DNA of 64,000 bases from Phycisphaerae bacterium (GTDB lineage Bacteria; Planctomycetota; Phycisphaerae; Tepidisphaerales; Tepidisphaeraceae): contig JAICIO010000011.1 of NCBI GenBank assembly GCA_025924315.1, positions 1 through 64,000 of the forward strand, read 5' to 3'. Shown here in pieces: positions 3,746 through 49,449 of the stretch. Position 1 is the first letter of the stretch. Each line of letters begins with the position of its first letter. The notes under the pieces are model-generated. The model saw nothing but the letters and a program-made list of their open reading frames with translations. It was not told the DNA's origin and did not search any database. Made by a program: the position numbers and the translations under genes.

Positions 3746-6256
3746 TTACACGACAGGGCACGGCCTGGCGTCCCAGATCTCCGCTGCGTACTGGGAAATC
3801 GTGCGGTCGGATGAGAATTTCCCTGAATGAGCGATGTTGAGGATCGCCTTTCGCGCCCAGGCGTGTGGATCGGCGTACAACTTCAGCAACGCCTCGTCCG
3901 CCTTCAGGTACGACTGCAGATCGGCGAGGTGCATGTAGCGATCCCCGCGGGCGAGCAGCGTTTCGTGAATCGGCACGAACGCGCCGCGCTCGTTCTGGCT
4001 GAAGTCATCACCGGCGATCTGATCGAGGGCTTTCCGCACTTCAGGATCGTTGAGGTAATGCCACTGCGGGCTGTACCAGCTTCGGCTGTCCGCAACCTCT
4101 TGCGCGCTGAGCCCGAACAGAAAGAAGTTCTCTTCGCCCGCTTCTTCCGCCATCTCGATCGTCGCGCCGTCGCGCGTGCCGATCGTCAGCGCGCCGTTCA
4201 TCATGAACTTCATGTTGCTCGTGCCGCTCGCTTCGTAGCCGGCGGTCGAGATCTGGTTCGACACGTCGCTCGCGGGAATGAGCCGCTCGGCGACGCTTAC
4301 CGAATAATCCGGCAGAAAGACGACCTTGATGCGCTCGCGCGCAACCGGATCGCCGTCAATCGTGCCCGCGAGGTTGTTGATGAACTTGATGATCACCTTC
4401 GCCAGGTGGTAAGCCGGCGCCGCTTTTCCCGCGAAGAAGAATGTTCGTGGAGGCAGATCGAGCTTTGGGTTGTCGCGCAGGCGGTTGTAAAGCACGAGAA
4501 TGCGCAGCGCGTTGAGCAGCTGCCGTTTGTATTCGTGAATGCGCTTCACCTGCGAATCAAAGATCGAATCGGGATCAACCGTCACGCCGCACGTTGAATT
4601 CAGCCACTGCGAAAAATCCTCCTTGGCCTGTCGCTTGGCGGCGAGAAACAGCTCGCGGAACGTCCGGTCGTCCGCGAGCGGCGCGAGCTGCTTCAATTGC
4701 GAAAGATCCGAAATCCAGCCAGCGCCGATCGCGTCCGTGATTGCAGTTGCGAGCGCTGGATTGCAAAGGAGCAGCCACCGCCGTGGGGTGACGCCGTTGG
4801 TTTTGTTATTGAAGCGATCAGGAAAAATCTCCGCGAAATCTTTCACCGTCACGTTGCGCAGCAGCTCTGAATGAATCACCGCGACGCCGTTGGTGCTGTG
4901 CGAACCGACAATCGCGACGTTCGCCATGCGCACTTTGCGCGTCGCGCCTTCTTCGACCAGGCTGATGCGCTCGATGCGTCCCGCGTCGCCGGGATATGCA
5001 CTGCGGACGTCGCTGATCAGCCGGCGGTTGATCTCATAAATGATCTCGAGATGCCGCGGGAGCATCAGCTCGAACCACGCGAGCGGCCATTTTTCCAGTG
5101 CCTCGGGAAGCAGCGTGTGATTCGTGTAGGCGAGCGTGCGGCGGGTGATGTCTATTGCATCGTCCCAGCCGAGGTTCGCCTCATCAAGCAGGATCCGCAT
5201 GAGCTCCGGCACGGCGAGCGACGGATGCGTGTCGTTCAGCTGGATCGCGGCCTTTTCGGGTAGCGCGTTCCAATCCCCATTGCTGCGACGGAATCGTCGA
5301 ATGAGATCCGCCAGCGAACAGGCCACGAGAAAATACTCCTGCACGAAGCGCAGGCCCTGGCCCATCGTCGTGGAGTCGTCGGGGTAGAGCACGCGCGTGA
5401 GCGACTCGGCCGTGAGCGATTCCGCGAGGGCACCGATGAAATCTCCGCCGCTGAAACGCTGGAAGTCGAACACATTCGGCGCCGCCGCGGCCCAGAGGCG
5501 GAGCGTGTTGATCGTCTTTCCGCCGTAGCCAACGATGGGACGGTCGTACGGAATGCCGATGAGCGTCGAAGGTCGCCCGGGAATCGTGCGCAGCGATCCG
5601 CCCGCCAATTCGAACGAGCAGTTGAGCTTGATTTCGACCTGCTCGTGCACGCGCTGAACTTCCCAGGGGTCCGGGCGCCTGAGCCAATTATCCGGCCGCT
5701 CGCGCTGCCAGCCGTCCTGGATCGTCTGCGTGAAAATCCCATACTCGTAGCGCAGCCCATATCCCATCGCGGGTAACTGCATCGTCGCCATGGAATCGAG
5801 AAAGCATGCCGCGAGGCGCCCGAGCCCGCCGTTGCCCAGGCCCGCGTCCGGCTCCTGTTCGAGCAGCTCGATCCACTCGAGTCCCTTGTTCTTCGCCGCG
5901 TCGCGCGCCAGCGGCTCGACCAGCAGGTTCGTCACGTTGTTCGCCAGGGACCGCCCGATCAGGAACTCCATCGAGAGGTAATAGATCCGCTTCGGATTTT
6001 CGCGGTCGTAGGTGGCTTCCGTGCGAATCCATCGCTGCGAGAGAATGTCGCGAACCGAGCGCGCAAACGCCTCGAACTTCTCCCGCGAGCCGGACTCGGC
6101 AAAGCTGCGGACGTTATCGAACAGCAGATGGCGGTCGTAGAGCGCGTTGTCGGTGCCGGCGAGAGGAACTGGGCCGCAGCCGTATTGCTTGATCAATGCC
6201 GCGACGTCAATCCCTGGAATCGCGCGAGTGGCTGGCGATGCGACAGTGGTTCCCAT
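3746..6256 (-). CDS. glgP: Glycogen/starch phosphorylase
   Basis: An 836-residue GT35 alpha-glucan phosphorylase that releases glucose-1-phosphate from glycogen using inorganic phosphate and PLP. Key features are GNGGLGRLAACFLDS near residue 140, IQLNDTHPSLAVPELMR, KRIHEYKRQLLN, and the PLP site EASGTSNMKFMMNG with the Schiff-base lysine at about residue 683. The length equals the bacterial norm. ATG 6256 has GAGGG nearby. It follows glgX by 58 bases, and a DosR-like box lies in that gap and the glgX stop region, suggesting its own inducible promoter inside the gene run. Confidence 0.97.
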   Translation of the reverse strand: MGTTVASPATRAIPGIDVAALIKQYGCGPVPLAGTDNALYDRHLLFDNVRSFAESGSREKFEAFARSVRDILSQRWIRTEATYDRENPKRIYYLSMEFLIGRSLANNVTNLLVEPLARDAAKNKGLEWIELLEQEPDAGLGNGGLGRLAACFLDSMATMQLPAMGYGLRYEYGIFTQTIQDGWQRERPDNWLRRPDPWEVQRVHEQVEIKLNCSFELAGGSLRTIPGRPSTLIGIPYDRPIVGYGGKTINTLRLWAAAAPNVFDFQRFSGGDFIGALAESLTAESLTRVLYPDDSTTMGQGLRFVQEYFLVACSLADLIRRFRRSNGDWNALPEKAAIQLNDTHPSLAVPELMRILLDEANLGWDDAIDITRRTLAYTNHTLLPEALEKWPLAWFELMLPRHLEIIYEINRRLISDVRSAYPGDAGRIERISLVEEGATRKVRMANVAIVGSHSTNGVAVIHSELLRNVTVKDFAEIFPDRFNNKTNGVTPRRWLLLCNPALATAITDAIGAGWISDLSQLKQLAPLADDRTFRELFLAAKRQAKEDFSQWLNSTCGVTVDPDSIFDSQVKRIHEYKRQLLNALRILVLYNRLRDNPKLDLPPRTFFFAGKAAPAYHLAKVIIKFINNLAGTIDGDPVARERIKVVFLPDYSVSVAERLIPASDVSNQISTAGYEASGTSNMKFMMNGALTIGTRDGATIEMAEEAGEENFFLFGLSAQEVADSRSWYSPQWHYLNDPEVRKALDQIAGDDFSQNERGAFVPIHETLLARGDRYMHLADLQSYLKADEALLKLYADPHAWARKAILNIAHSGKFSSDRTISQYAAEIWDARPCPVV

Positions 6257-6321: not shown

Positions 6322-8513
6322 GAAGCGCGATTGCCGGATTTCCTCAGACGTTCGATATTTCCAAACAAGACGACAACCGATCGCGGCTGGACGAGGTACG
6401 TGTCAGCCGAGACCGGCACGCGTTCACGCCAGCTGACGATGTCGTTCGGGGAATCGAGGCCGGTGTCGATCCAGCGGCCCCATGGGTTTTTTGGAGCGGT
6501 GCACGACGGCGGAAGCTCGAACTCCAGTGCCTGCGGCGAGGCATTGAAGATGAGGTGGACGCACAACTTGTCCTTCTGAAGCTCGGTGGTCAACGCGAAG
6601 CATTGCGAGCAGTCGCTCCAATCCGGCTGGTCGAGCTTCGTGCCATGCCACGCCTTGGTGGCGGCGTCGATCATCTCGCCGAGCGTCGTGCGCTTCTGTT
6701 CATGCTCGATGCTGCGAAGCATGCGGCGCTCGGCGAGCAGCCGCATGAAGCGCACCAGATCCGCGTGCTTCTCAACCAGGGTCCAGTCGAACCAGTTGAA
6801 TTCGCTGTCGTGGCAATAGGCATTGTTATTGCCGAGTTGCGTGCGGCGGGCTTCATCGCCCATGAGAATCATCGGCACGCCGAGCGACAGCATTGTTACG
6901 GTGAGAAGATTCTTGCATTGTCGATTCCGCAGCTTTTCGACCTGCGGATCATCGGAAGGGCCTTCCACTCCGCAGTTCCAGCTGAAATTGTCGTTCGAAC
7001 CATCGCGGTTCTGATCGTTGTTCGCTTCGTTGTGCTTGTCGTTGTAGCTGACGAGATCGTTGAGCGTGAAGCCGTCGTGACAGGCGACGAAATTCACGCT
7101 TTGTTCCGGCTCGCGGTGTTCCTGGCGGTACATTTCGGGGCTGCCGACAAAGCGATCCGCGAAGCGCCGGTGCGACCCGGGCACCCCGCGGAAGAAATTG
7201 CGGGCGTCGTCACGAAAGCGGCCGTTCCATTCCTTCCACGTATCGCCGACGAATGAACCGACCTGATACAGCCCCGACGCATCCCACGCTTCGGCGATCA
7301 GTTTCGTGCCGGCCATCACCGGATCGGATTCGATGTCCCAAACGATCGGCGGATTAGGCAGCACGTTGCCGTCAATGTCGCGGGAGAGGATCGATGCGAG
7401 ATCGAAGCGGAACCCGTCGACGTGCATTTCCTCGACCCAATAGCGCAAGCTGTCGAGAATCATTCGCCGAACGACCGGATGATTCGCGTTGAGCGTATTT
7501 CCGCAGCCGCTGAAGTCGGCGTAACGCGATTGATCGTTTTCGAGAATGTAATACGCGCGGTTCGCGAAGCCCTTGAAGCAGAAGGTGGGCCCGTTCGCGC
7601 CGCCCTCAGACGTGTGGTTGTAGACGACGTCGAGAATGACCTCGAGCCCCGCGCGATGCAGCGCCTTGACCATGTCGCGAAACTCGTCGATCGGCCCGAG
7701 CGGATCAGTGCGCGAGCTGTACGCCGCGTGCGGCGCGAAGAACGACACCGGTTGATAGCCCCAGTAATTCACGACACCCGGCGGACAGTCCTGCGCGTCG
7801 TACGCAAAGATCGGCAGCAATTCGATCGCGGTGATGCCGAGCTGCTTGAGGTACGGGATCTTCTCGATCAGCCCCGCGAAGGTGCCGCGCTTGGCTTCGG
7901 CGACGCTGGAGCTCGGATGGCGCGTGAATCCGCGGACGTGCATCTCGTAGATGATCGTGCGCGCCGATGAGGTGCACGGCCGCTCGTCGCCTTCCCAGTC
8001 ATAGGCTCCTGAATCGACGAGAACGCTTTTCATCGCGACGGCGGTGTTGTCGCCCTCGCGCGCGCCGGCCCAGCGATCGTAGTTCTTCGTCACGACAACA
8101 CCGCGGCCGTAGGGGTCCAGCAGCAGCTTGGTTGGATCGAAGCGCAGTCCGTTGGCAGGATCGAAGGGACCCGTGACGCGATAGCCATAGATCTGGCCGG
8201 GCTGAAGATTCGGCACGAACGTGTGCCAGTAGTGATACGTTCGATTGGCGACGGGATCGATCGAGATCACGCGCGAAGGCTTGGCGTCTGCGACGTCGTC
8301 GAAGAGCAGCAAATCGACCGCGGTGGCGTTTCGCGTAAAGACGCTGAAGTTTGCGCCGCCGTCGATCGGGGTTGCGCCGATCGGAAAAGCGCGCCCGTGC
8401 GGAGAGGCATGCGGCGCCTTCGAACGCGCGACCGGGCGATCCGGTAACGGCCCACTCCGATCGCGAATCTCGCGGGTCACCGGACGCTCGGATCGCTTGA
8501 TTGGCTTGATCAT
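6315..8513 (-). CDS. glgX: Glycogen debranching enzyme (isoamylase type, GH13)
   Basis: A 732-residue GlgX/isoamylase-type enzyme that cleaves alpha-1,6 branches left after phosphorylase action. An N-terminal CBM48 region (GATPIDGGANFSVFTRNATAVDLLLFDD) precedes the GH13 barrel. The catalytic nucleophile Asp lies in VDGFRFDLAS (about 370), the acid Glu in LIAEAWD (about 408) and the third Asp in FVACHDGFTL (about 478). It overlaps the SulP stop by ATGA and has AGGAGG upstream of its ATG. The first 40 residues are basic and not part of the usual enzyme. Confidence 0.96.
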   Translation of the reverse strand: MIKPIKRSERPVTREIRDRSGPLPDRPVARSKAPHASPHGRAFPIGATPIDGGANFSVFTRNATAVDLLLFDDVADAKPSRVISIDPVANRTYHYWHTFVPNLQPGQIYGYRVTGPFDPANGLRFDPTKLLLDPYGRGVVVTKNYDRWAGAREGDNTAVAMKSVLVDSGAYDWEGDERPCTSSARTIIYEMHVRGFTRHPSSSVAEAKRGTFAGLIEKIPYLKQLGITAIELLPIFAYDAQDCPPGVVNYWGYQPVSFFAPHAAYSSRTDPLGPIDEFRDMVKALHRAGLEVILDVVYNHTSEGGANGPTFCFKGFANRAYYILENDQSRYADFSGCGNTLNANHPVVRRMILDSLRYWVEEMHVDGFRFDLASILSRDIDGNVLPNPPIVWDIESDPVMAGTKLIAEAWDASGLYQVGSFVGDTWKEWNGRFRDDARNFFRGVPGSHRRFADRFVGSPEMYRQEHREPEQSVNFVACHDGFTLNDLVSYNDKHNEANNDQNRDGSNDNFSWNCGVEGPSDDPQVEKLRNRQCKNLLTVTMLSLGVPMILMGDEARRTQLGNNNAYCHDSEFNWFDWTLVEKHADLVRFMRLLAERRMLRSIEHEQKRTTLGEMIDAATKAWHGTKLDQPDWSDCSQCFALTTELQKDKLCVHLIFNASPQALEFELPPSCTAPKNPWGRWIDTGLDSPNDIVSWRERVPVSADTYLVQPRSVVVLFGNIERLRKSGNRASD

Positions 8514-10258
8514 GTGAGAACCTCCTGCGGGACGGCGCCTGAAGGCCTCGTTGCGCTCGTGAGATTGTCGATCACATCCGCGACGGAGCTAAAGCGGTTG
8601 ATCCCGCCCAGCTTTGCATCGACGTGGGCCGCTCGGATCCGATCGCGGACGGATGAGCGCGCTTCGACCGCGTGAAGCTCGATGCCATCTGCCTTCAATT
8701 CATCCGCGAGGCCACCGAGTGCTTCGGCGCTTTGGATGTCGATTTGTGGCGCGGCGGAGAGGTCGAGCACGACGGCGCGCGGCGGGGTGGGCTGCGCGCG
8801 GACGCTATTGAGAATCGCGTCACGAACGTGATCGATGTTGAAGTAAACGAGCCCGGATTCGGGACGGAAGATCATCAGGCCGGAGATGCCCTCATTGTCC
8901 GGATGTCGATCGAGATCGGAGAACCGCCCCGTGCCTGGGATGCGACCGAGGATCGCGACGTGCGTGCGGCTGGCACGTCGGATGATTTGCACGAGCGAAA
9001 TAATCGCGCCGATGAGCACGCCGCGGAGAAGGCCGGATGTCAGCACACCGAACAGCGCCGCGAAGGCGGTGATGAATTCGGCGCGGTCGGCGTGCCAGAG
9101 GTGCTTGAGCGCATCGCCCTTGAAAAGCCCCGTGACCGCGACGAGCACGATCGCGGCGAGCACCGGCTGAGGCAGATTGCGCAGCAGATCGGTGAGGAAG
9201 ATCGAGACGAGCAGGATGACGAGCGCTGCAATGAGCCCGGAAAGCGGTGTGCGTGCGCCGGCGTTTTCGTTCACGACGGATTGAGACATCCCACCGCTGA
9301 CCGGAAATCCTTGTCCGATACCCGCAGCCAAATTCGCGGCGGCGAGGGCCAGAATCTCCTGGTTGTTGTCGAGCCGCCCACCGTACTTCGCGACGAAGGT
9401 TCGGCCGATCGCCGCGGTTTCGACGGCGCCGAGAAGGAAGCATGCGAAGGCGAGCGGGATGATCTCGTCCGCGTCGCTCCACTGCACGCGCGGCAGGCGC
9501 AACTCGGGCAGGCCTTGTGGGACGTGGCCGATGAGCTTCACTCCGCGGTTGCCGAGCCCCAGCGCGCCGGCGGCGATGATTCCGCCGATCACGACGAACA
9601 GCGCGACCGGTTTGTTCCGGAAGAAGAGCTTTCCCGCGATCAAAACCGAGAGCGCGACGAAGCCCGTAATGAGCGATGGGAAATGCGTCAGCTGCAGATG
9701 CGTAAGAAAATGTCCGAATTGTCCCCAGAATCCGCCGTGCGACCCGGCGAAGCCGAACAGTTTCGGAAGCTGCGTGCTGGCGATGAACAGGGCGACGCCG
9801 CACTTGAAGCCAACCATCACCGATTCGGAGATGAAGTTGACGATGCTTCCGGCGCCGAAGAGCCAGGCGAGAATTCCGATCACTGCGACGAGCAGTGCAC
9901 AGCACTCGGCGAGCGCGCGAAAGCGGCTCGTATCACCATGCGCGATGCCGCCGAGCGATGCGCCCAGCAAGAGCGAAATCGCCGACGTCACGGTGATGCT
10001 CGTTTGCCGTGAGCTGCAGAACAGCCAGAAAACGAGGCCGGAGAAGAGACACGCATAAAGGCCGGCTTCCGGCGGAAGGTTCGCGAGCGATGCGTCGCCC
10101 AATCCCGACGGCAGCAGATACGCCGCAAGCGTGAGCCCCGCGACAAAATCGCCGATGAGCCACGCCCGCGAATAACTCCGCAGCCACTTGGTTGCCGGCA
10201 GCCATCGTAAAGAGGCGGTCGGGGTCGGCGCGACGAAAGGGCGAGCGGATGCGGTCAT
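8510..10258 (-). CDS. SulP (SLC26) family anion transporter with STAS domain
   Basis: A 582-residue membrane permease. Ten or more hydrophobic segments (about residues 30-430) begin with the SulP signature region GDFVAGLTLAAYLLPSGLGDASLANLPPEAGLYA (shown by its key start GDFVAGLTLAAYLLP), followed by a cytoplasmic STAS domain (about 450-570; FNIDHVRDAI, VVLDLSAAPQIDIQSAEAL). Family members carry sulfate, bicarbonate, chloride or dicarboxylates; the substrate is unknown. It starts 9 bases after the glucosidase-like gene and overlaps glgX by ATGA, so it sits tightly inside the glycogen gene run. A coupled role, for example bicarbonate or organic-anion balance, is inference. Confidence 0.9.
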   Translation of the reverse strand: MTASARPFVAPTPTASLRWLPATKWLRSYSRAWLIGDFVAGLTLAAYLLPSGLGDASLANLPPEAGLYACLFSGLVFWLFCSSRQTSITVTSAISLLLGASLGGIAHGDTSRFRALAECCALLVAVIGILAWLFGAGSIVNFISESVMVGFKCGVALFIASTQLPKLFGFAGSHGGFWGQFGHFLTHLQLTHFPSLITGFVALSVLIAGKLFFRNKPVALFVVIGGIIAAGALGLGNRGVKLIGHVPQGLPELRLPRVQWSDADEIIPLAFACFLLGAVETAAIGRTFVAKYGGRLDNNQEILALAAANLAAGIGQGFPVSGGMSQSVVNENAGARTPLSGLIAALVILLVSIFLTDLLRNLPQPVLAAIVLVAVTGLFKGDALKHLWHADRAEFITAFAALFGVLTSGLLRGVLIGAIISLVQIIRRASRTHVAILGRIPGTGRFSDLDRHPDNEGISGLMIFRPESGLVYFNIDHVRDAILNSVRAQPTPPRAVVLDLSAAPQIDIQSAEALGGLADELKADGIELHAVEARSSVRDRIRAAHVDAKLGGINRFSSVADVIDNLTSATRPSGAVPQEVLT

Positions 10259-10267
10259 CGTCGTGCC

Positions 10268-13027
10268 CTAAACTCTGCCCGCCGTCTTCGAACTCTTTGC
10301 GGTCTCGACTTTCTCAACCGTGTCCTTCACCACCGTAACTTCGATCGCCGCGGCGAGCTTGCCGACGTCGATGAATTGCTTCGCGGTGCTCGTGGCGAAG
10401 ACGTGCATCGCGCGCGCGATGACGCCGGTCCAGCCGGTTTGGTGGCTGGCGCCGAGTCCCGCGCCGTTATCGCCGTGGAAATACTCGTAGAAGAGGATGA
10501 GGTCGCGCCAGTGGGGATCTTCCTGGAACTTCTTTGTCGCGCCGTACACGGGGCGATCGCCGGAGTCGTTCTTCAGGAAAATTCCCGCGAGGCGGTTCGT
10601 CAGCTCCTCGGCCACCTGATACAGGCTCATCATGTTGCCGGAGCCGGTGGGGCATTCGATCTGGAAATCGTCGCCGTAGAACGTGTAGTACTGCAGCAGC
10701 GCGCGGATGATCAGCGCGTTCACCGGCATCCAGATCGGCCCGCGCCAGTTGGAGTTTCCGCCGAACATGCCGGTGTCGGACTCGGCGGGCAAATAGCAAA
10801 CGCGATAGTCCTGCCCGTTGGACTTGAAGACGTAGGGGCACGTGTCGTGATACTTCGACAGCGCGCGGATCCCGTACGGGCTGAGGAATTCGTTTTCGTC
10901 GAGCATCCGGCTCAGCACGCGGCGAAGCTTCTTCTCGTCGAGCACGGAAGCGAGCACGCGATTGTTTTTCCCGCGCTTGTTCGGGTCATGAATGAATGCA
11001 ACCAATTCAGGGCGCGTCTGCAGAAAATCTCGCACGCGCGCACCGAGCTCCGGATATTTCTCGATCAGCTTCCCGTCGGTAACGTTGACCGCGCACAGCG
11101 GCAACAAGCCGACCATCGAGCGGACTTTCAATCGTTGCGCTTTCCCATCCGGCAGCCGCAGCACGTCGTAGAAGAATCCGTCTTCCTCGTCCCACATGCC
11201 CACATCGTTTCCGGCGTGGTACATCGATGATGCGATCCAGAGGAAGTGCTGCGCGAATTTCAAGCACATCTCGCCATAGCTCGACTTGTTCAGCGCGAGC
11301 TCCGCGGTGATCTCCATCATGTTCTGGCAGAAGATCGCCATCCATGCGGTGCCGTCGGCTTGTTCGAGATATCCGCCGGTGGGAAGGGCGGCGCTCCGGT
11401 CGAACACGCCGATGTTGTCGAGGCCAAGGAATCCGCCTTCGAAGACGTTGTTTCCGCTGCGGTCTTTGCGGTTCACCCACCAGGTGAAGTTAAGCACGAG
11501 CTTGTGGAACGAGCGCTCGAGCCATTCCAGATCGGCGCGGCCGTGGCTTTGCTGGATGCGATATAGGAACAGTGTTGACCACGCATGCACCGGCGGATTT
11601 ACGTCGCCGAAGTTCCACTCATACGCTGGAATCTGTCCGGTCGGATGCAGATACATTTCGCGGAGCATCAGGTCGAGCTGCTGCTTGGCGAATTCTTCGT
11701 CGACCATCGAGAGCGCAAGCACGTGAAACGCCAGATCCCATGCCGCGTACCAGGGATATTCCCACTTGTCCGGCATCGAGATGATGTCGGCGTTGTACAT
11801 ATGGTGCCAATGCCCGTTTCGCGGCGCCTGGCGTTTCGGATTGAACGGATCGGATCCGCGTTCGGTGAGCCATCGATCGACGTCGTAGTAGTAAAACTGC
11901 TTCGACCAGAGCATGCCGGCGAGGGCTTGGCGCATGACGTTCTTCTGATCGTCATCGAGCGCCGCGGGGATGACGACGTCGTAGAACGCGTCGGCTTCAG
12001 ATCTGCGCGCCTCGAGGGTCTTGTCGAATGAAGCTCCAAACGGCCGCGCCATCCCGAGCTCGTCGCTGAGGCGCAGACGGATCGTTTCTGACTTTCCCGC
12101 CGGCACGCGAATCGTGTAGTGCATCGACGATTTCGTGCCGATCTTGTCGGGATTCACCGCGTTCGCGCGGCCGTGGACGATGTAATCATTGATGCCGTCT
12201 TTCACGAAGCGAACGGAGTTCGGCACAGCAACTAGCTTCTGCGTGTTGGTTTCATTTTCCGTAAAGAGCAGCTCGGGTTTTCCTTCGCCATAGAGGCAAC
12301 GCGCGCCGAGATCGCTGTGCTGAGCCAGAATCGCGCCGCCGGCGAACGTCGGCGGGGTGACGGCCTGCAGCGTCGGATGCAATCCGCCGGTGCTGCCCCA
12401 AGTGTTCCGATACCAAAGCGTCGGCAACACGTGCAGCGTCGCGGCGTCAGGGCCGCGGTTGTGAACGGTGATCTCGATGAGCGTGTCTTCCGGCGAGCCT
12501 TTCGCATATTCCACGAACACGTCGAAGTATTCGTCATCGTCGAAGATTCCGGTGTCGAGCAATTCAAACTCTTGCGCGTTCCGGTCCCGCAGCCGATTCT
12601 CACGCACGATCTCGTTGTACGGATACGCCCGCTGTGGGTACTTGTACAAATACTTCATGTACGAATGCGTCGGCGTAGAATCGAGGTAGAAGTAGTATTC
12701 CTTCACGTCCTCCCCATGATTGCCCTCGCTGTTGGTGAGGCCGAAGAGGCGCTCCTTCAGAATTGGATCGTGCCCATTCCACAGCGCCAGCGAAAAGCAC
12801 AGGCGCGCGTGATCATCCGAATACCCCGCGAGACCATCTTCGCCCCAGCGATAAGCGCGCGACCGAGCATTGTCGTGCGTGAAATAGCTCCACGCGTCCC
12901 CCGATTCACTGTAATCTTCGCGCACCGTTCCCCACTGGCGCTCGCTGAGATACGGACCCCACTTCTTCCACGGCGCCGCGCCCGTGCGCGCTTCTTCGAG
13001 CCTGACATGTTCGGGGGTCTCTTTCAT
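10268..13027 (-). CDS. Large glucosidase-like protein (MGH1/GH63-like)
   Basis: A 919-residue protein of the glucosidase group related to GH63 mannosyl-oligosaccharide glucosidases. The N-terminus (ERQWGTVREDYSESGDAW, then RWGEDGLAGYSDDHARLCFS) and the (alpha/alpha)6-barrel segments (MYNADIISMPDKWEYPWYAAWDLAFH at about 460, and FGGNSNWRGPIWMPVNALI) are the hallmark regions. It probably hydrolyses glucose from an alpha-glucoside; the exact substrate is unknown. The open frame extends upstream to 13165, but ATG 13027 is preceded by AAGGA at good spacing and fits the family N-terminus. It lies between xfp (34 bases away) and sulP (9 bases away). Confidence 0.85.
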   Translation of the reverse strand: MKETPEHVRLEEARTGAAPWKKWGPYLSERQWGTVREDYSESGDAWSYFTHDNARSRAYRWGEDGLAGYSDDHARLCFSLALWNGHDPILKERLFGLTNSEGNHGEDVKEYYFYLDSTPTHSYMKYLYKYPQRAYPYNEIVRENRLRDRNAQEFELLDTGIFDDDEYFDVFVEYAKGSPEDTLIEITVHNRGPDAATLHVLPTLWYRNTWGSTGGLHPTLQAVTPPTFAGGAILAQHSDLGARCLYGEGKPELLFTENETNTQKLVAVPNSVRFVKDGINDYIVHGRANAVNPDKIGTKSSMHYTIRVPAGKSETIRLRLSDELGMARPFGASFDKTLEARRSEADAFYDVVIPAALDDDQKNVMRQALAGMLWSKQFYYYDVDRWLTERGSDPFNPKRQAPRNGHWHHMYNADIISMPDKWEYPWYAAWDLAFHVLALSMVDEEFAKQQLDLMLREMYLHPTGQIPAYEWNFGDVNPPVHAWSTLFLYRIQQSHGRADLEWLERSFHKLVLNFTWWVNRKDRSGNNVFEGGFLGLDNIGVFDRSAALPTGGYLEQADGTAWMAIFCQNMMEITAELALNKSSYGEMCLKFAQHFLWIASSMYHAGNDVGMWDEEDGFFYDVLRLPDGKAQRLKVRSMVGLLPLCAVNVTDGKLIEKYPELGARVRDFLQTRPELVAFIHDPNKRGKNNRVLASVLDEKKLRRVLSRMLDENEFLSPYGIRALSKYHDTCPYVFKSNGQDYRVCYLPAESDTGMFGGNSNWRGPIWMPVNALIIRALLQYYTFYGDDFQIECPTGSGNMMSLYQVAEELTNRLAGIFLKNDSGDRPVYGATKKFQEDPHWRDLILFYEYFHGDNGAGLGASHQTGWTGVIARAMHVFATSTAKQFIDVGKLAAAIEVTVVKDTVEKVETAKSSKTAGRV

Positions 13028-43915: not shown

Positions 43916-45316
43916 ATGACCAAGGTATCGATCACATCAACCGACAGCTTCGCTGCACGTGCGCAACGCAGCGAAGCGAAGCGCGTGGCCCTTTGGCTTG
44001 CGGTGCTGGTCGGGATGGCGCTGATCACAATCGTGCGGCGATTGCTCGGCGGCCTCGTCATGCGCTCCGACGGTCTGTTCTTTCCTTACCTGTCGGCGCT
44101 TCTCGTCGGAATTGCCGGGCAGATCGTCCTGCTGACGTTTCTCCGCAAAGCGATCCGCGGGGCGTTTCTGCTGCCCGCGTGGCTTCCGTCGTTGACCGCG
44201 TTCTTCGATCTCGGGATCGTCACCGCCGTGCTTGCCACCGCGGCATTTCGATCGCCGCGCGGACCGATCCCGGCGCTTTCCGCGCCGCCGATGCTGCTGC
44301 TTCCGCTGGTCATCCTGATGTCCGTGCTGAAGCTGCGACCGCGGCTCACTCTCGCGGTTGGCCTGGCGGCGACGCTTGTTCATGCGCTGCTCGCCGCTCG
44401 CGCCATCGAGGTGACCAGCTCGCTCCTGGAAGCATATCCCGTCTACTTTGCGTACGCAGGGATCCTTCTCCTCACCTCGCTCATCGCGATGGTCGTATCG
44501 AACGAGGTGAAGACGCATGTGCGCGAAGCCGCCGACGAAGCAGTCGGCCACGAGCGCGCTCAGCAGCAGGTGACGAACATGCGTCACGACCTCGAGATCG
44601 CGCGGCAGATCCAGATCGGCTTGTTGCCGAAGCAGTCTCCGAAGCTGCCCGGCTTCGACATCGCCGCGATGAATCGCCCGGCCGATCAGACCGGCGGGGA
44701 CTATTATGACTGGCAACAGCTCCCCGACGGTCGCCTCGCGGTCGCGCTCGCCGATGTGACCGGCCACGGCATCGGCCCCGCCATGGTCATGGCTGTTTGT
44801 CGCGCCTACGCAAGATCTACCGCGCCGACCACGTCCGACCCCGCAGAGCTGCTCACGCGCCTGAATGAGCTGATCCACGAGGATCTTCCGGCCGATCGCT
44901 TCATCACCTTCGTCGTCGCGGTCCTCGATGCTGACGGCACAACGCATCTTCAATCCGCCGGGCACGGGCCGACGCTGCTTTATCGCGCGAACGATCGATC
45001 GGTAGAGCAGTTCGGCGGCGATGGAATGCCTCTGGGCATCAGTCCCGTCGAGACGTACGGCCCCACGACCACGTTTCAACTCGCGGAAGGCGATGTCCTC
45101 GTGATGCTCACCGACGGCTTCTTCGAAGCGTCCCGCGCCAGCGATGGGCAACTCTTCGGCATCGCTCGTCTCTGCGATTCCCTTCGCGAACGCGCAAGCT
45201 GCACAGCCGAAACCATGCTTCATGATATCGACGAAACGGTTCGACAATTCTCCGCCGGCACGCCTCAGCTCGACGACATGACCGCGATTGTCATCAAACG
45301 AATCACCGCGGGCTGA
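43916..45316 (+). CDS. Membrane-bound SpoIIE/RsbU-type PP2C phosphatase
   Basis: A 466-residue protein with about six membrane helices (residues 25-200), a short coiled region (AADEAVGHERAQQQVTNMRH) and a PP2C-like phosphatase domain (about 225-462). Motifs are EIARQIQIGLLPKQSPKLPG, GGDYYD, LADVTGHGIGPAMVMA, HGPTLL and LVMLTDGFFEA, with the Asp ligands for the metal ions. Such enzymes dephosphorylate STAS anti-sigma antagonists. A STAS gene is only 600 bases away on the other strand, but its usual phospho-serine is missing. Confidence 0.93.
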   Translation: MTKVSITSTDSFAARAQRSEAKRVALWLAVLVGMALITIVRRLLGGLVMRSDGLFFPYLSALLVGIAGQIVLLTFLRKAIRGAFLLPAWLPSLTAFFDLGIVTAVLATAAFRSPRGPIPALSAPPMLLLPLVILMSVLKLRPRLTLAVGLAATLVHALLAARAIEVTSSLLEAYPVYFAYAGILLLTSLIAMVVSNEVKTHVREAADEAVGHERAQQQVTNMRHDLEIARQIQIGLLPKQSPKLPGFDIAAMNRPADQTGGDYYDWQQLPDGRLAVALADVTGHGIGPAMVMAVCRAYARSTAPTTSDPAELLTRLNELIHEDLPADRFITFVVAVLDADGTTHLQSAGHGPTLLYRANDRSVEQFGGDGMPLGISPVETYGPTTTFQLAEGDVLVMLTDGFFEASRASDGQLFGIARLCDSLRERASCTAETMLHDIDETVRQFSAGTPQLDDMTAIVIKRITAG

Positions 45317-45334
45317 ACGCGGCGAAGCGATGGC

Positions 45335-45937
45335 TCATGCATCCAGAACGATCGGCTCGAGAATCGTGCGCAGCGCCTGTCGAGCGCGGTGAAGGCGGGT
45401 TTTTACGTTGGCTTGCGTACAGCCGAGAATCGCCGCCGTCTCATCCGTGTCGCGCTGCTCGATGTCGCGAAGCACGAGCACCGTGCGATACGACTCTGGG
45501 AGAAGCTCGATCGACTCGCGGACCTTCGCGGCCATCTCACTCTCTGAGGCTTGCGCGAGCGGATCGTTGGGCCATCGCCGTGGATGTGAAACGTGATGGC
45601 CGGTGCGATCGAATTGCGGCAGCGTTTCTTCGATGGCAACGGTGCGCGAGCGCTTCGCCGATCGAATCTTCATCAGGCAACAATTCACCAGGATCCGATA
45701 AAGCCACGTCCATAGCCGGGCATTGCTTTCGAAGTTGCCGATGTTGTGAAACGCGGAGATGAACGCCTCCTGCACCGCGTCCTCGCAATCCTCCGCAGAG
45801 AGAAACCGCCGCGCGACGGAGAGCATTCGACCGGCGTATGTGCGAACGAGCTTTTCAAACGCCTGGTCGTCTCCCGATTGCAGCGCGTGTACGAACTGCG
45901 CTTCTTCCGGAGTGGAATCGTGGACTGAAGTCGTCAC
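45335..45937 (-). CDS. ECF-type RNA polymerase sigma factor
   Basis: A 200-residue sigma-70 family protein with only regions 2 and 4. Region 2 is FEKLVRTYAGRMLSVARRFL with EDAVQEAFISAFHNIGNF; region 4 is LPESYRTVLVLRDIEQRDTD with GCTQANVKTRLHRARQAL. The start is taken as GTG 45937, which overlaps the STAS stop as GTGA and has AAGGAG upstream. An ATG at 45982 would add 15 residues and overlap more of the STAS gene. It is convergent with the phosphatase gene, 18 bases apart. No anti-sigma factor gene adjoins it. Confidence 0.92.
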   Translation of the reverse strand: MTTSVHDSTPEEAQFVHALQSGDDQAFEKLVRTYAGRMLSVARRFLSAEDCEDAVQEAFISAFHNIGNFESNARLWTWLYRILVNCCLMKIRSAKRSRTVAIEETLPQFDRTGHHVSHPRRWPNDPLAQASESEMAAKVRESIELLPESYRTVLVLRDIEQRDTDETAAILGCTQANVKTRLHRARQALRTILEPIVLDA

Positions 45938-46200
45938 GATGTGCGACTCCTTTCCAGGAGTTCCGAAATAAAGCCAGAACATCGGCTGAGCGTGATGCCG
46001 TCGTCGAGCAGATCGTGCAGTAGCTGTGCGCCCGCGCGATCGGCGAAATGAACGTCGCAAAGATCCAGACGCACCGGAAGATTTCGCGATCGCGCCGCCG
46101 CGATTGCGTCACGCGTTTCCTGCGTCCACGGCTCGAGGAGTTTTCCTTCGAGCTTAAGCACGATGGCGTCGGAGCCAATGGTTTCAGAGATTCGCAGCAC
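45934..46200 (-). CDS. Stand-alone STAS-domain protein
   Basis: An 88-residue STAS domain of the anti-sigma-antagonist type: AIVLKLEGKLLEPWTQETRD, RLDLCDVHFADRAGAQLLHD. In SpoIIAA-like proteins the phosphorylated serine sits in D-S-S-G; here the tetrad is D-R-A-G, so it cannot be phosphorylated there. The start is a GTG at 46200. It precedes and overlaps the ECF sigma gene, implying a joint role. Confidence 0.85.
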   Translation of the reverse strand: MLRISETIGSDAIVLKLEGKLLEPWTQETRDAIAAARSRNLPVRLDLCDVHFADRAGAQLLHDLLDDGITLSRCSGFISELLERSRTS

Positions 46201-46306
46201 GCCAGACGATAAAGCGACGCGTGTGCCGCGGTGGATCGGACTCTGCCGAATCGGTGCAAGCGGATTGCGACGCGGGAGTTATGAATTCTGAAGAACCGCA
46301 GTTCGC

Positions 46307-46328
46307 GGCCACGATCGATCTCGTGGCC
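46307..46328. repeat. Hairpin GGCCACGA / TCGTGGCC
   Basis: Perfect 8-base arms around TCGATC, 19 bases after the activator gene stop on the minus strand. Further TTCGTGGC/TCTCGTGGC fragments follow up to 46363. It lacks a T-run, so terminator function is uncertain. Confidence 0.45.
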
Positions 46329-46347
46329 ACGAAATCTCGTGGCTGGG

Positions 46348-48261
46348 CTACGAAGGTTCGTGGCGATGATCTCTTGAAATGCCCAGCTTCTTCATTCGGC
46401 TCCGCAGCGTGTTCGGATGCAGATCGAGCAGCTTTGCGGCGCCACGCGCGCCTTCGATGACCCAATCGGTTTGACGAAGTATTTCGAGGATGTGGTTACG
46501 CTGCACGGATTCGAGACCAGTTTGATTCTCTGGAGTTGCCGCCAAGGGCGCGACGGGTGCCGGGCTCGCCGCGAATGTGGACGGATCAATCTGCAGCGTC
46601 TCGCCGCTGCTCAGGATTACCGCCCGCTCGAGCACGTTCTCCAACTCGCGAACGTTGCCGGGCCAGTGATACTGGCTCAGCAGCTGCATCGACTCGCCCG
46701 ACACGCCCGTGATTCGCTTGCCGATCCGCATTGCGAATTTATCGACCAGGAATTTCACGAGCAGCGGCAGATCTTCGCGGCGCTCGCGCAGCGGCGGAAG
46801 GTGCAGCGGAAAAACGCTCAGGCGGTAATACAAGTCTTCGCGAAATGTGCCGTCGCGCACGGCGCGCGCCAGATTCCGATTCGTCGCGGCGATGATGCGG
46901 ACGTCGGCCTTGATCGGCACATTTCCGCCGACGCGTTCGAATTCGCGCTCCTGTAGCACGCGCAGCAGCTTCACCTGCACGTCGAGCGGGATTTCGCCGA
47001 TCTCGTCCAGGAAGATCGTTCCGCCCGAGGCCAGCTCGAATCGTCCGATCCGGCGAGTGATCGCGCCGCTGAACGCGCCGCGCTCGTGGCCGAATAATTC
47101 CGATTCAACCAGACCGGTCGGCAGGGCGGCGCAGTTCACCTTGATCAGCGGTTTGTCGCGCCGCGCGCTCGCCGAATGAATGGCCCGCGCGAACAGTTCC
47201 TTTCCGGTTCCAGTTTCGCCGGTGATCAGCACCGACGCGTCCGTCGGCGCCACCTGCCGCACGTTGTCGAGCACCGACACGAGCGGCCGACTCATGCCGA
47301 CGATCTCTTCAAAGTTGTGAACCGATTTGATCTCTTCCTGCAGGTAGAGATTCTGCTGCTGCAGCCGCGATTGTTCCTGCTCCATCAGCACGCGTTGGGT
47401 GATGTCGATGAGCATCGTGCGCGCGTGCTTGCCGTCCGGCTCGGGCTTGGAGAACCATTGCACCCAGACCGGCTTTCCGTCGTCTTTGCGGCGAAGCTCG
47501 AGCTCGATGCCCGAAACTTCTTTTCCCTGCTTCATCGCCGCCAGCGTTTCGTCGAATCGCAGTCGATTTTCCTTTGTCAGCGCGAGCAATTCTTTTCCGA
47601 TCGTTTGCCCAACCTCGTCTTCGCGAATGCCGAGCAGCTTGCACGCGGCGCGGTTGGCGCGAATGAAATGCGATTCGAGATCTTCGTAGATGTACGCGAT
47701 GGGCGCCTGGTCGTAGAGATCGCGGTAACGCTGCTCGCTGTCGCGCAATTGCGCCTCGGCGCGAAGGCGTTGCAGCTCGGCCGCGGCGCGCGACGCGAAG
47801 ATGTGGAACAAATACATCCGCCGATCTTCCGGCGGCATCGGGCGCTCGTCGAACACGGCGAGATGTCCCAGCACGCGGCCGTCCCCGTCCTTCAGCGGCA
47901 CGCCGAGATAACTTTCGATTCCCATTTTCGCGAGCGCCTTGTCGCGTGGAAAAAGCCGCGCGGTGCCTTGCGGGTGATGGCACAGCTTGCCGCCGACCAC
48001 GTCCTCGCACGGCGTACCCGCCAGGTTCCACTCGATGTTTTCATGAATGCGATCGCGATACCAGTAACCAAGTGTGCGCACGCGCGTCGGCGCACCCGCG
48101 AATTCCGCGACGAACGCATAATGCACGTCCATCGCCGCCGCGAGGTGCTGCACGAGCGATTTGAAGAATGCGTCGCCGGTGCTCTGCGCCGTCCCCTCGA
48201 CGATCGCGCGCAGTGCAGCCATTTCAGACGCCGCCGATTGTGACTCGCCCGACAAAGCCAT
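46348..48261 (-). CDS. NtrC-family sigma-54 activator (GAF-PAS-AAA-HTH)
   Basis: A 637-residue enhancer-binding protein. It has a GAF domain (about 20-170; [39 protein letters not shown]), a PAS domain (about 185-300), a coiled linker and an AAA+ domain (about 330-560). Walker A is GETGTGKE and Walker B is [11 protein letters not shown]. The sigma-54 contact loop reads GAFSGA instead of GAFTGA. A Fis-type HTH ends the protein ([20 protein letters not shown]). It is cytoplasmic, FhlA-like in layout. ATG 48261 is provisional, since the frame is open to 48369 and no good ribosome site is visible. Confidence 0.93.
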
Positions 48262-48344
48262 GAGGAAGTTTGATTTTACCACGGCAAACACATTGAGCGA
48301 GGCCGAAGCGTTACTCGCCGCCCGTTGCGTGCATCCAACCGGTG

Positions 48345-49127
48345 ATGCGAAACCCACTTTTAATCGCACTTTTCTTTGTCACGATAAGCAGTGGCGTGCT
48401 CGCGGCCGAGCCGGCCACGCGTCCGGTTGTGCTCGTCGAGCTGTTCACATCCGAAGGCTGCTCGAGCTGCCCGCCCGCGGACGCGCTTCTCGCGAAGCTC
48501 GCCAAGGCGAACGCGATCGACGGCGCCGAGATTGTTCCGCTCGCCTTTCATGTCGATTACTGGAACGACCTGGGTTGGAGCGACCCGTATTCATCGAGCG
48601 AATTCACGCAGCGGCAGCGCGACTACGCCAACTTTTTTCATACAACGCAAATCTACACGCCGCAGATGATCGTCGATGGAGCGGCGGAGTTCGTCGGCAG
48701 CAATGCGAAAAGGGCGCGCGACGAGATCCTCGCCGCCGCGAAGCATGCGAAAAGCTCGATCGATCTTCACGTGACGCAGTCCGATCAGATGCTGCACTGC
48801 ACGGTGGCCATCAAAGATCTGCCATCCGATCGGCAAGCCAAATCGGAGGTGGAGCTGGCGATCACGGAAGATGATTTGGAATCCGATGTTGCCCACGGGG
48901 AGAATGCGGGGCGAAAGCTCACACATTTTGGTGTGGTGCGGTCGCTGCTGTCGATTGGCACGATTTCGAATAGCGAAAACGGGTTCAGCCGCACCTTCGA
49001 TGTGAAACTCGATCCGAAATGGCAGCGCGCCAAACTGAAACTGACCGTGTTCGTTCAACAATCCAAGCTAGGGGCGGTGAACGCGGTAAAGTCGGTGCGG
49101 GTCGGGGAGATTTCCGCTGTCCGGTGA
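48345..49127 (+). CDS. DUF1223 exported thioredoxin-like protein
   Basis: A 260-residue protein with a signal peptide (LLIALFFVTISSGVLAAEPA) and the DUF1223 domain: VVLVELFTSEGCSSCPPADA (CxxC pair), PLAFHVDYWNDLGWSDPYSS, and YTPQMIVDG. The fold is thioredoxin-like; the role is unknown. ATG 48345 is used; a GTG three bases earlier is also possible. It is divergent from the NtrC-type gene (83 bases), so it is a natural target candidate, though no -24/-12 promoter is seen. Confidence 0.88.
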   Translation: MRNPLLIALFFVTISSGVLAAEPATRPVVLVELFTSEGCSSCPPADALLAKLAKANAIDGAEIVPLAFHVDYWNDLGWSDPYSSSEFTQRQRDYANFFHTTQIYTPQMIVDGAAEFVGSNAKRARDEILAAAKHAKSSIDLHVTQSDQMLHCTVAIKDLPSDRQAKSEVELAITEDDLESDVAHGENAGRKLTHFGVVRSLLSIGTISNSENGFSRTFDVKLDPKWQRAKLKLTVFVQQSKLGAVNAVKSVRVGEISAVR

Positions 49128-49200
49128 ATCCCTGAAACCAGCGCTTACGCTGCGGCATCGAAATCTTATGATGAATCAAGTCCCGCACTCAAGGTGATGC

Positions 49201-49449
49201 GTGAGCTGCAAAGATGTCGCCGATTTTTTGATGGAATACCTCGACGGCACGCTTCCGCGCGCGCAGCGCGTGATGTTCAAGCTGCACATCATCGTCTGCC
49301 GCGATTGCCGGCGTTACATCGATAGCTATAAAAAGACCGTCGAACTCGCCCGGGATGCGGGCGGCGCCGTAGCGCTGGAGGATCCGCCCGAGGCGCTGGT
49401 GCGCGCGATCTTAAAGTCGCGACCTTCGCATCGCGCGAACGATCAGTGA
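49201..49449 (+). CDS. Zinc-finger (zf-HC2) anti-sigma-like protein
   Basis: An 82-residue protein with the ZAS/zf-HC2 signature: Cys3 and then H-x3-C-x2-C (HIIVCRDC, about 28-35). This is the zinc site of anti-ECF factors. There is no membrane segment, so it would act in the cytoplasm. The start is a GTG with AAGGTG upstream. No ECF sigma gene is adjacent; the nearest one in the window is at 45335-45937 on the other strand. The SDR gene follows after 11 bases. Confidence 0.85.
   Translation: MSCKDVADFLMEYLDGTLPRAQRVMFKLHIIVCRDCRRYIDSYKKTVELARDAGGAVALEDPPEALVRAILKSRPSHRANDQ

Follow-up and report, generated by a model that had tools for sequence, protein, structure and literature searches.

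We conclude that this planctomycete locus appears, from comparison of its sequence with those of its relatives, to hold a dedicated cascade that leads from sigma-54 to an ECF sigma factor and includes an unusual STAS partner. The reading that we consider rather probable is that control of production supplants the adjacent ZAS-type anti-sigma factor of related loci, and that a nonphosphorylated STAS partner would act on the sigma factor. The locus lies in a stretch of 64,000 nucleotides, here called the window, on contig 11 of a Phycisphaerae genome of 6.57 Mb in 262 contigs; in the genome collection, the named genomes most closely related to it are planctomycete MAGs.

The sigma gene (45335..45937, minus strand) encodes a 200-residue ECF factor with regions 2 and 4 only (Sigma70_r2, 6.8e-15; Sigma70_r4_2, 3.4e-15; TIGR02937, 93.3 bits against a cut-off of 42.9). 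Upstream of it on the same strand, and also starting with GTG, a gene for an 88-residue STAS-only protein occupies 45934..46200. The two reading frames share the bases GTGA, in which TGA is the STAS stop and GTG the sigma start, exactly as a preliminary description of this DNA had proposed. Pfam scored the STAS protein under its curated cut-offs (STAS_2, 19 of 29.2 bits; STAS, 15.5 of 22.6 bits). Nevertheless, an AlphaFold2 model of the 88 residues, made with a three-row alignment, has a mean pLDDT of 89, and its best Foldseek matches in the PDB are SpoIIAA, RsbV, and TM1442 (1thn, 1th8, 6m36, 1vc1); it is closest to SpoIIAA and RsbV as found in anti-sigma complexes. As modeled, the window protein is a member of the STAS fold of the SpoIIAA/RsbV kind.

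Textbook STAS proteins are anti-anti-sigma factors that work on kinases via a phosphoserine. The window protein was described as lacking this residue, and its translation indeed reads D54-R55-A56-G57 at the signature tetrad. We find that the absence is family wide. In an alignment of the 17 STAS proteins encoded beside orthologous sigma genes, tetrad position 2 (window residue 55) is serine in three and A, R, P, L, H, G, or E in the remainder. There is thus no conserved serine or threonine in the D-S-x-G loop: the window has arginine, and 14 of 17 have no serine at the phosphosite. One possible objection, that the serine is merely shifted, failed, because the next position (window residue 56) is serine in one of the 17 proteins, and position 2 or 3 in just four. 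Serine-phosphate switching at the tetrad therefore cannot be the common mechanism of this family. Another STAS protein of the window's genome (L017) has a loop of the usual type, D-S-G-G.

The same gene pair was sought in relatives, as had been suggested. Sigma searches covered 61 genomes, 298 genomes of the class, and 384 of the phylum, and genes in relatives were found from open reading frames and home-made profiles. After removal of two distant sigma loci (L059 and L060) and same-place duplicates (L068, L069, L083, L098, and L107), and with nine short copies swapped for longer ones, 99 orthologous sigma loci remained, all in Planctomycetota. A gene for a zinc anti-sigma factor (ZAS, zf-HC2) lies directly downstream in 77 of these and a STAS gene directly upstream in 17, one of them as a fusion; five have neither and none has both. 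An adjacent ZAS gene is therefore found in 0/17 STAS loci, the window included, versus 77/82 of the other sigma loci. A STAS protein scan of the genome collection led to two planctomycete loci, L020 and L021, in each of which the STAS gene immediately precedes the orthologous ECF sigma gene. A STAS profile, whose source and searched sets overlap, found the protein in at least 4 of 392 phylum genomes, an undercount, as at most 13 candidates were scored per genome. A plasmid search with one relative's STAS protein returned no match.

The two kinds of sigma factor occur as separate paralogues in seven genomes (G454, G475, G502, G533, G535, G587, and G635). The sigma tree is poorly resolved, and the STAS type needs at least four to five label changes on the best trees. 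An AU test on 16 of the 17 rows, with L065, L151, and L167 set aside as outgroup or long rows, did not reject a single clade of STAS sigmas (p 0.49). The 17 sequences may thus share one origin. Tree-aware pairing gave one pair on supported branches and four on all branches. The mutual exclusion of STAS and adjacent ZAS is striking, yet it may reflect few independent events, since the tree is poorly resolved and one clade is not rejected. We also looked for residues that tell STAS-type from ZAS-type sigma factors. Most of those found fall within the variable stretch that links regions 2 and 4, and we draw no inference from them, because a separate lineage would give the same picture.

The coupling of the two genes is conserved. 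In 14 of the 16 unfused loci the two frames can overlap by four bases (ATGA, GTGA, or TTGA), implying that the GTGA of the window is not a chance arrangement. The exceptions are L065, with an overlap of one base, and L021, with a gap of ten; in L020, an alternative ATG lies 11 bases further on. In the remaining locus (L063/L066, G062:C217), STAS and ECF sigma form a single reading frame of 307 residues with no stop between them. Its STAS tetrad is D-S-P-G. The fusion is a single case, it was not found in the other two genomes of its order, and, with its reading frame close to where the contig ends, it might be the product of an assembly slip. The conserved overlap, the mutual exclusion with adjacent ZAS, and this one natural fusion are compatible with direct binding of STAS to the sigma factor, one of the options named in the preliminary description.

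The same features bear on whether the STAS protein is a cotranscribed passenger that makes no regulatory contact with the sigma factor and has its role elsewhere, for example with a transporter. Free-standing STAS proteins do serve transporters too, and MlaB complexes are among the Foldseek matches of the model. However, the conserved four-base overlap, the lack of an adjacent ZAS gene, and the STAS-sigma fusion all speak against a passenger, which we think improbable.

Directly upstream of STAS lies a gene for a sigma-54-dependent activator (46348..48261, minus strand), with GAF and PAS_4 domains, an AAA+ domain carrying the GAFSGA motif (Sigma54_activat, 3.7e-72), and a Fis-type helix-turn-helix (HTH_8). 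Its start codon is uncertain, the reading frame being open to 48369. An activator gene of this family is present within 2 kb in 16 of the 17 STAS loci, upstream on the same strand in 15 and, in the fusion locus, downstream instead. In every one of the 16 activators, the Walker A motif is intact and either GAFSGA or GAFTGA is present. The exception is L020, in which no activator gene was found in 12.2 kb, and which keeps the promoter and both palindromes described below. The window's genome also encodes rpoN (E 2.8e-60). Apart from the activator, no clearly recurrent flanking gene was seen at STAS loci. In one relative, at L055, the activator gene is immediately preceded by what appears by eye to be a gene for a large RND-type efflux pump (7454-10846, minus strand).

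A candidate -24/-12 promoter of the form GG-N10-GC, CGGCACACGCGTCGCT, was recognized by its sigma-54 sequence score at 46213..46228 on the minus strand (shuffle p 0.004). The score weights and the consensus, TGGCACG-N4-TTGCW, were used unfitted. Sites scoring at least 18.7 precede STAS in 16/17 loci, compared with 4/82 sigma loci that have no STAS gene (Mann-Whitney p 6e-10). Shuffling each locus separately gave p <= 0.02 in 15 of the 17; L129 has a score of 17.7 and a shuffle p of 0.13. The predicted transcript start in the window is about 2 nt ahead of the STAS start codon. With the promoter so near the gene, a nearly leaderless STAS transcript is predicted in the window (46200-46228) and likewise in L052, where the predicted leader is again a few nucleotides; in most other loci it is roughly 15-40 nt.

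Upstream of the promoter lie candidate binding sites for the activator. The first, recognized by its sequence pattern, is the palindrome CCACGAGATTTCGTGG (46327..46342, minus strand), which is the sole perfect CCACGANNNNTCGTGG in the 6.57-Mb genome. A second, CCACGAACCTTCGTAG (46348..46363, minus strand), is 21 bp from it and lies across the activator gene's 3' end. A third, CCACGAGATCGATCGTGG (46309..46326, minus strand), has a six-base spacer and is peculiar to the window. Palindromes of the form YCACGANNNNTCGTRR, with at most one mismatch per half, are present 19-21 bp apart in 13 of the 17 STAS loci, and the promoter-proximal member of the pair ends 98-111 bp ahead of the -24 box. L129 has three in a row, ending 85, 105, and 125 bp ahead of that box. 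Of 18 chosen genomes, nine carry the exact tandem motif, at one place in each and always at the STAS locus, with no match for a backwards control; among the 298 genomes of the class, it was found in eight, again at one place each and at the STAS locus, and the backwards control matched one. A single palindrome with one mismatch is at the level of its control (25 genome places versus 24), which leaves the perfect and the tandem forms as the informative ones. The palindrome count in the window alone, with two mismatches allowed, was not above chance. In three of the palindrome-less loci (L127, L130, and L131) the activator's helix-turn-helix motif reads PPSTLRSR rather than HPNTLRSR, as would be predicted were the recognition helix to change along with its site. 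The contig of the fourth such locus, L066, stops about 55 nt upstream.

The conserved anatomy of these loci suggests how the system might work. The GAF-PAS activator would bind the tandem palindromes, about 100-130 bp before the -24/-12 promoter, and via sigma-54 would turn on a two-gene operon, producing STAS and ECF sigma in coupled amounts. Such control of production would stand in for the adjacent ZAS that other orthologues of the sigma factor carry. Having lost its phosphoserine, the STAS protein would most likely be a phosphorylation-independent partner of the sigma factor, as the overlap, the exclusivity, and the one fusion suggest; it may hold, stabilize, or tune sigma, or relay a second signal. 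A plain inhibitor without release is hard to square with coupled production and with the fusion. A stricter form of the proposal is that direct, phosphorylation-free binding of STAS, as a separate or a fused partner, to the ECF sigma replaces the anti-sigma/anti-anti-sigma pair, with the single-target sigma-54 activator as the input. We regard this form as a serious possibility, with a little less than an even chance of being right.

The preliminary description had stated that no anti-sigma gene is adjacent. This holds as far as adjacency goes, but a displaced candidate exists about 3.3 kb upstream of the sigma gene and on the opposite strand: a gene for an 82-residue ZAS-type protein (49201..49449, plus strand; zf-HC2, 2.9e-9) that adjoins no sigma gene. 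It comes after a gene that by eye looks DUF1223-like (48342-49127), and the group formed by the two (48342-49449, plus strand) diverges from the activator gene. The main rival to our reading is built on this protein: STAS could be an anti-anti-sigma factor of a new kind, binding the displaced ZAS without phosphorylation, so that a sigma factor produced along with its own neutralizer of ZAS would be free at once. No other match in its genome reaches E <= 0.01, and the protein shares 46-49% identity with the ZAS partners of STAS-less sigma orthologues; ZAS relatives lie within 3.3 kb in four STAS loci (the window, L020, L021, and L127); and the STAS model resembles SpoIIAA and RsbV as they are seen with anti-sigma factors. 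In the other 13 of the 17 STAS loci, however, no ZAS gene was found in the fetched stretch, and the fusion indicates sigma as the partner. Moreover, the partners of SpoIIAA and RsbV are, to our knowledge, GHKL kinases and not zinc-finger anti-sigma factors. Overall, we consider antagonism between STAS and ZAS unlikely.

Canonical partner switching, in which an RsbW-like kinase and a SpoIIE-type phosphatase would act on some other residue of STAS, such as S75, has candidate components. A genome-wide search for the kinase, as had been recommended, gave three strong kinase-domain matches (E 8e-25 to 1e-22) on other contigs, so that a kinase is available in principle. A gene for a SpoIIE-type PP2C phosphatase (43916..45316, plus strand; E 3.6e-45) is convergent with the sigma gene. 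Residue 75, which emerged when a conserved alternative phosphosite was looked for, is S or T in 17/17 STAS proteins. Against this, no kinase gene is adjacent, and none of the 15 RsbW-like matches in the genome is on the window's contig. The RsbW-like match of L001 makes up the C terminus of a response-regulator protein and so is not a simple RsbW. Serines that open a helix often have a structural role. The phosphatase, which had been linked with the STAS-sigma pair, is adjacent in only 2/17 STAS loci, and those two proteins are only distantly similar (E 1e-11); we therefore rejected it as a member of the conserved unit, and it is probably a bystander, a chance neighbor. Partner switching of the canonical kind seems to us very improbable here.

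The combination that we favor, a sigma-54-driven operon whose STAS product acts on its ECF sigma, can be set beside several known systems. RsbV and SpoIIAA share with the window protein the STAS-only fold, being its closest solved structures, and a gene near a sigma gene; they differ in that 14 of our 17 proteins have no serine at the phosphosite, that no RsbW-like gene is adjacent in the window, and that the sigma factor here is of the ECF type, not of the SigB or SigF type. ECF-ZAS (zf-HC2) pairs are the arrangement of 77 of the 99 orthologues, whereas the STAS lineage, without adjacent ZAS, has the upstream STAS gene and predicted sigma-54 control. We know of no STAS partner in HrpL systems. 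Sigma-54 activators drive an ECF gene in the HrpRS-RpoN-HrpL cascade of Pseudomonas syringae and the HrpS-HrpL cascade of Pantoea (PMC5263251, PMC8103513), and the likeness is that an ECF sigma gene is, here by prediction, under sigma-54 polymerase and a dedicated enhancer-binding protein. Unlike in HrpL cascades, the activator here has GAF and PAS domains, the hosts are Planctomycetota, and the sigma lineage otherwise comes with an adjacent ZAS. The btr locus of Bordetella, with its ECF sigma BtrS, is similar in combining a STAS protein with a SpoIIE-type phosphatase; according to a review, BtrU, BtrV, and BtrW govern secretion by a mechanism given as unknown (PMC7498569). It differs from the window in its kinase, BtrW, since the window has no linked kinase gene and its phosphatase is not conserved. 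ECF41 and ECF56 sigma factors carry a fused regulatory domain, SnoaL_2 (PMC8103513, PMC7730460). The L063 fusion likewise attaches a non-anti-sigma domain to an ECF sigma, but that domain is STAS, is N-terminal to the sigma part, and in 16/17 loci is encoded as a coupled protein of its own.

Titles and abstracts of the papers listed contained no comparable STAS-ECF operon or fusion, with ECF classification work incompletely covered. In the searchable text of a review of STAS-only proteins (PMC8256260), the terms ECF and extracytoplasmic had no match. That of a 2025 survey of sigma-54 regulons that includes Planctomycetota (PMC12316311) gave none for ECF or STAS, and extracytoplasmic occurred once, in the reference list. 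If our reading is true, a serine-less STAS lineage, coupled to and once fused with an ECF sigma, acts on the sigma factor itself, and such direct action would be another way of controlling ECF sigma factors. Planctomycetota, which have many ECF sigma factors with few known inputs, would gain a predicted sigma-54 cascade of one activator and one target.

Finally, one of the sigma loci, L166 (G103:C17:58500-68500; sigma gene at 4359-4925, minus strand), has neither STAS nor ZAS and yet carries a near-perfect -24/-12 site, TTGGCACGGCGGTTGCA. This implies that sigma-54 control may accompany loss of ZAS even without STAS, and L166 could represent a third type of locus governed by sigma-54. Upstream, a tandem CGCGAAATGTC[A/G]CG repeat was seen by eye, which differs from the palindromes of the STAS loci.
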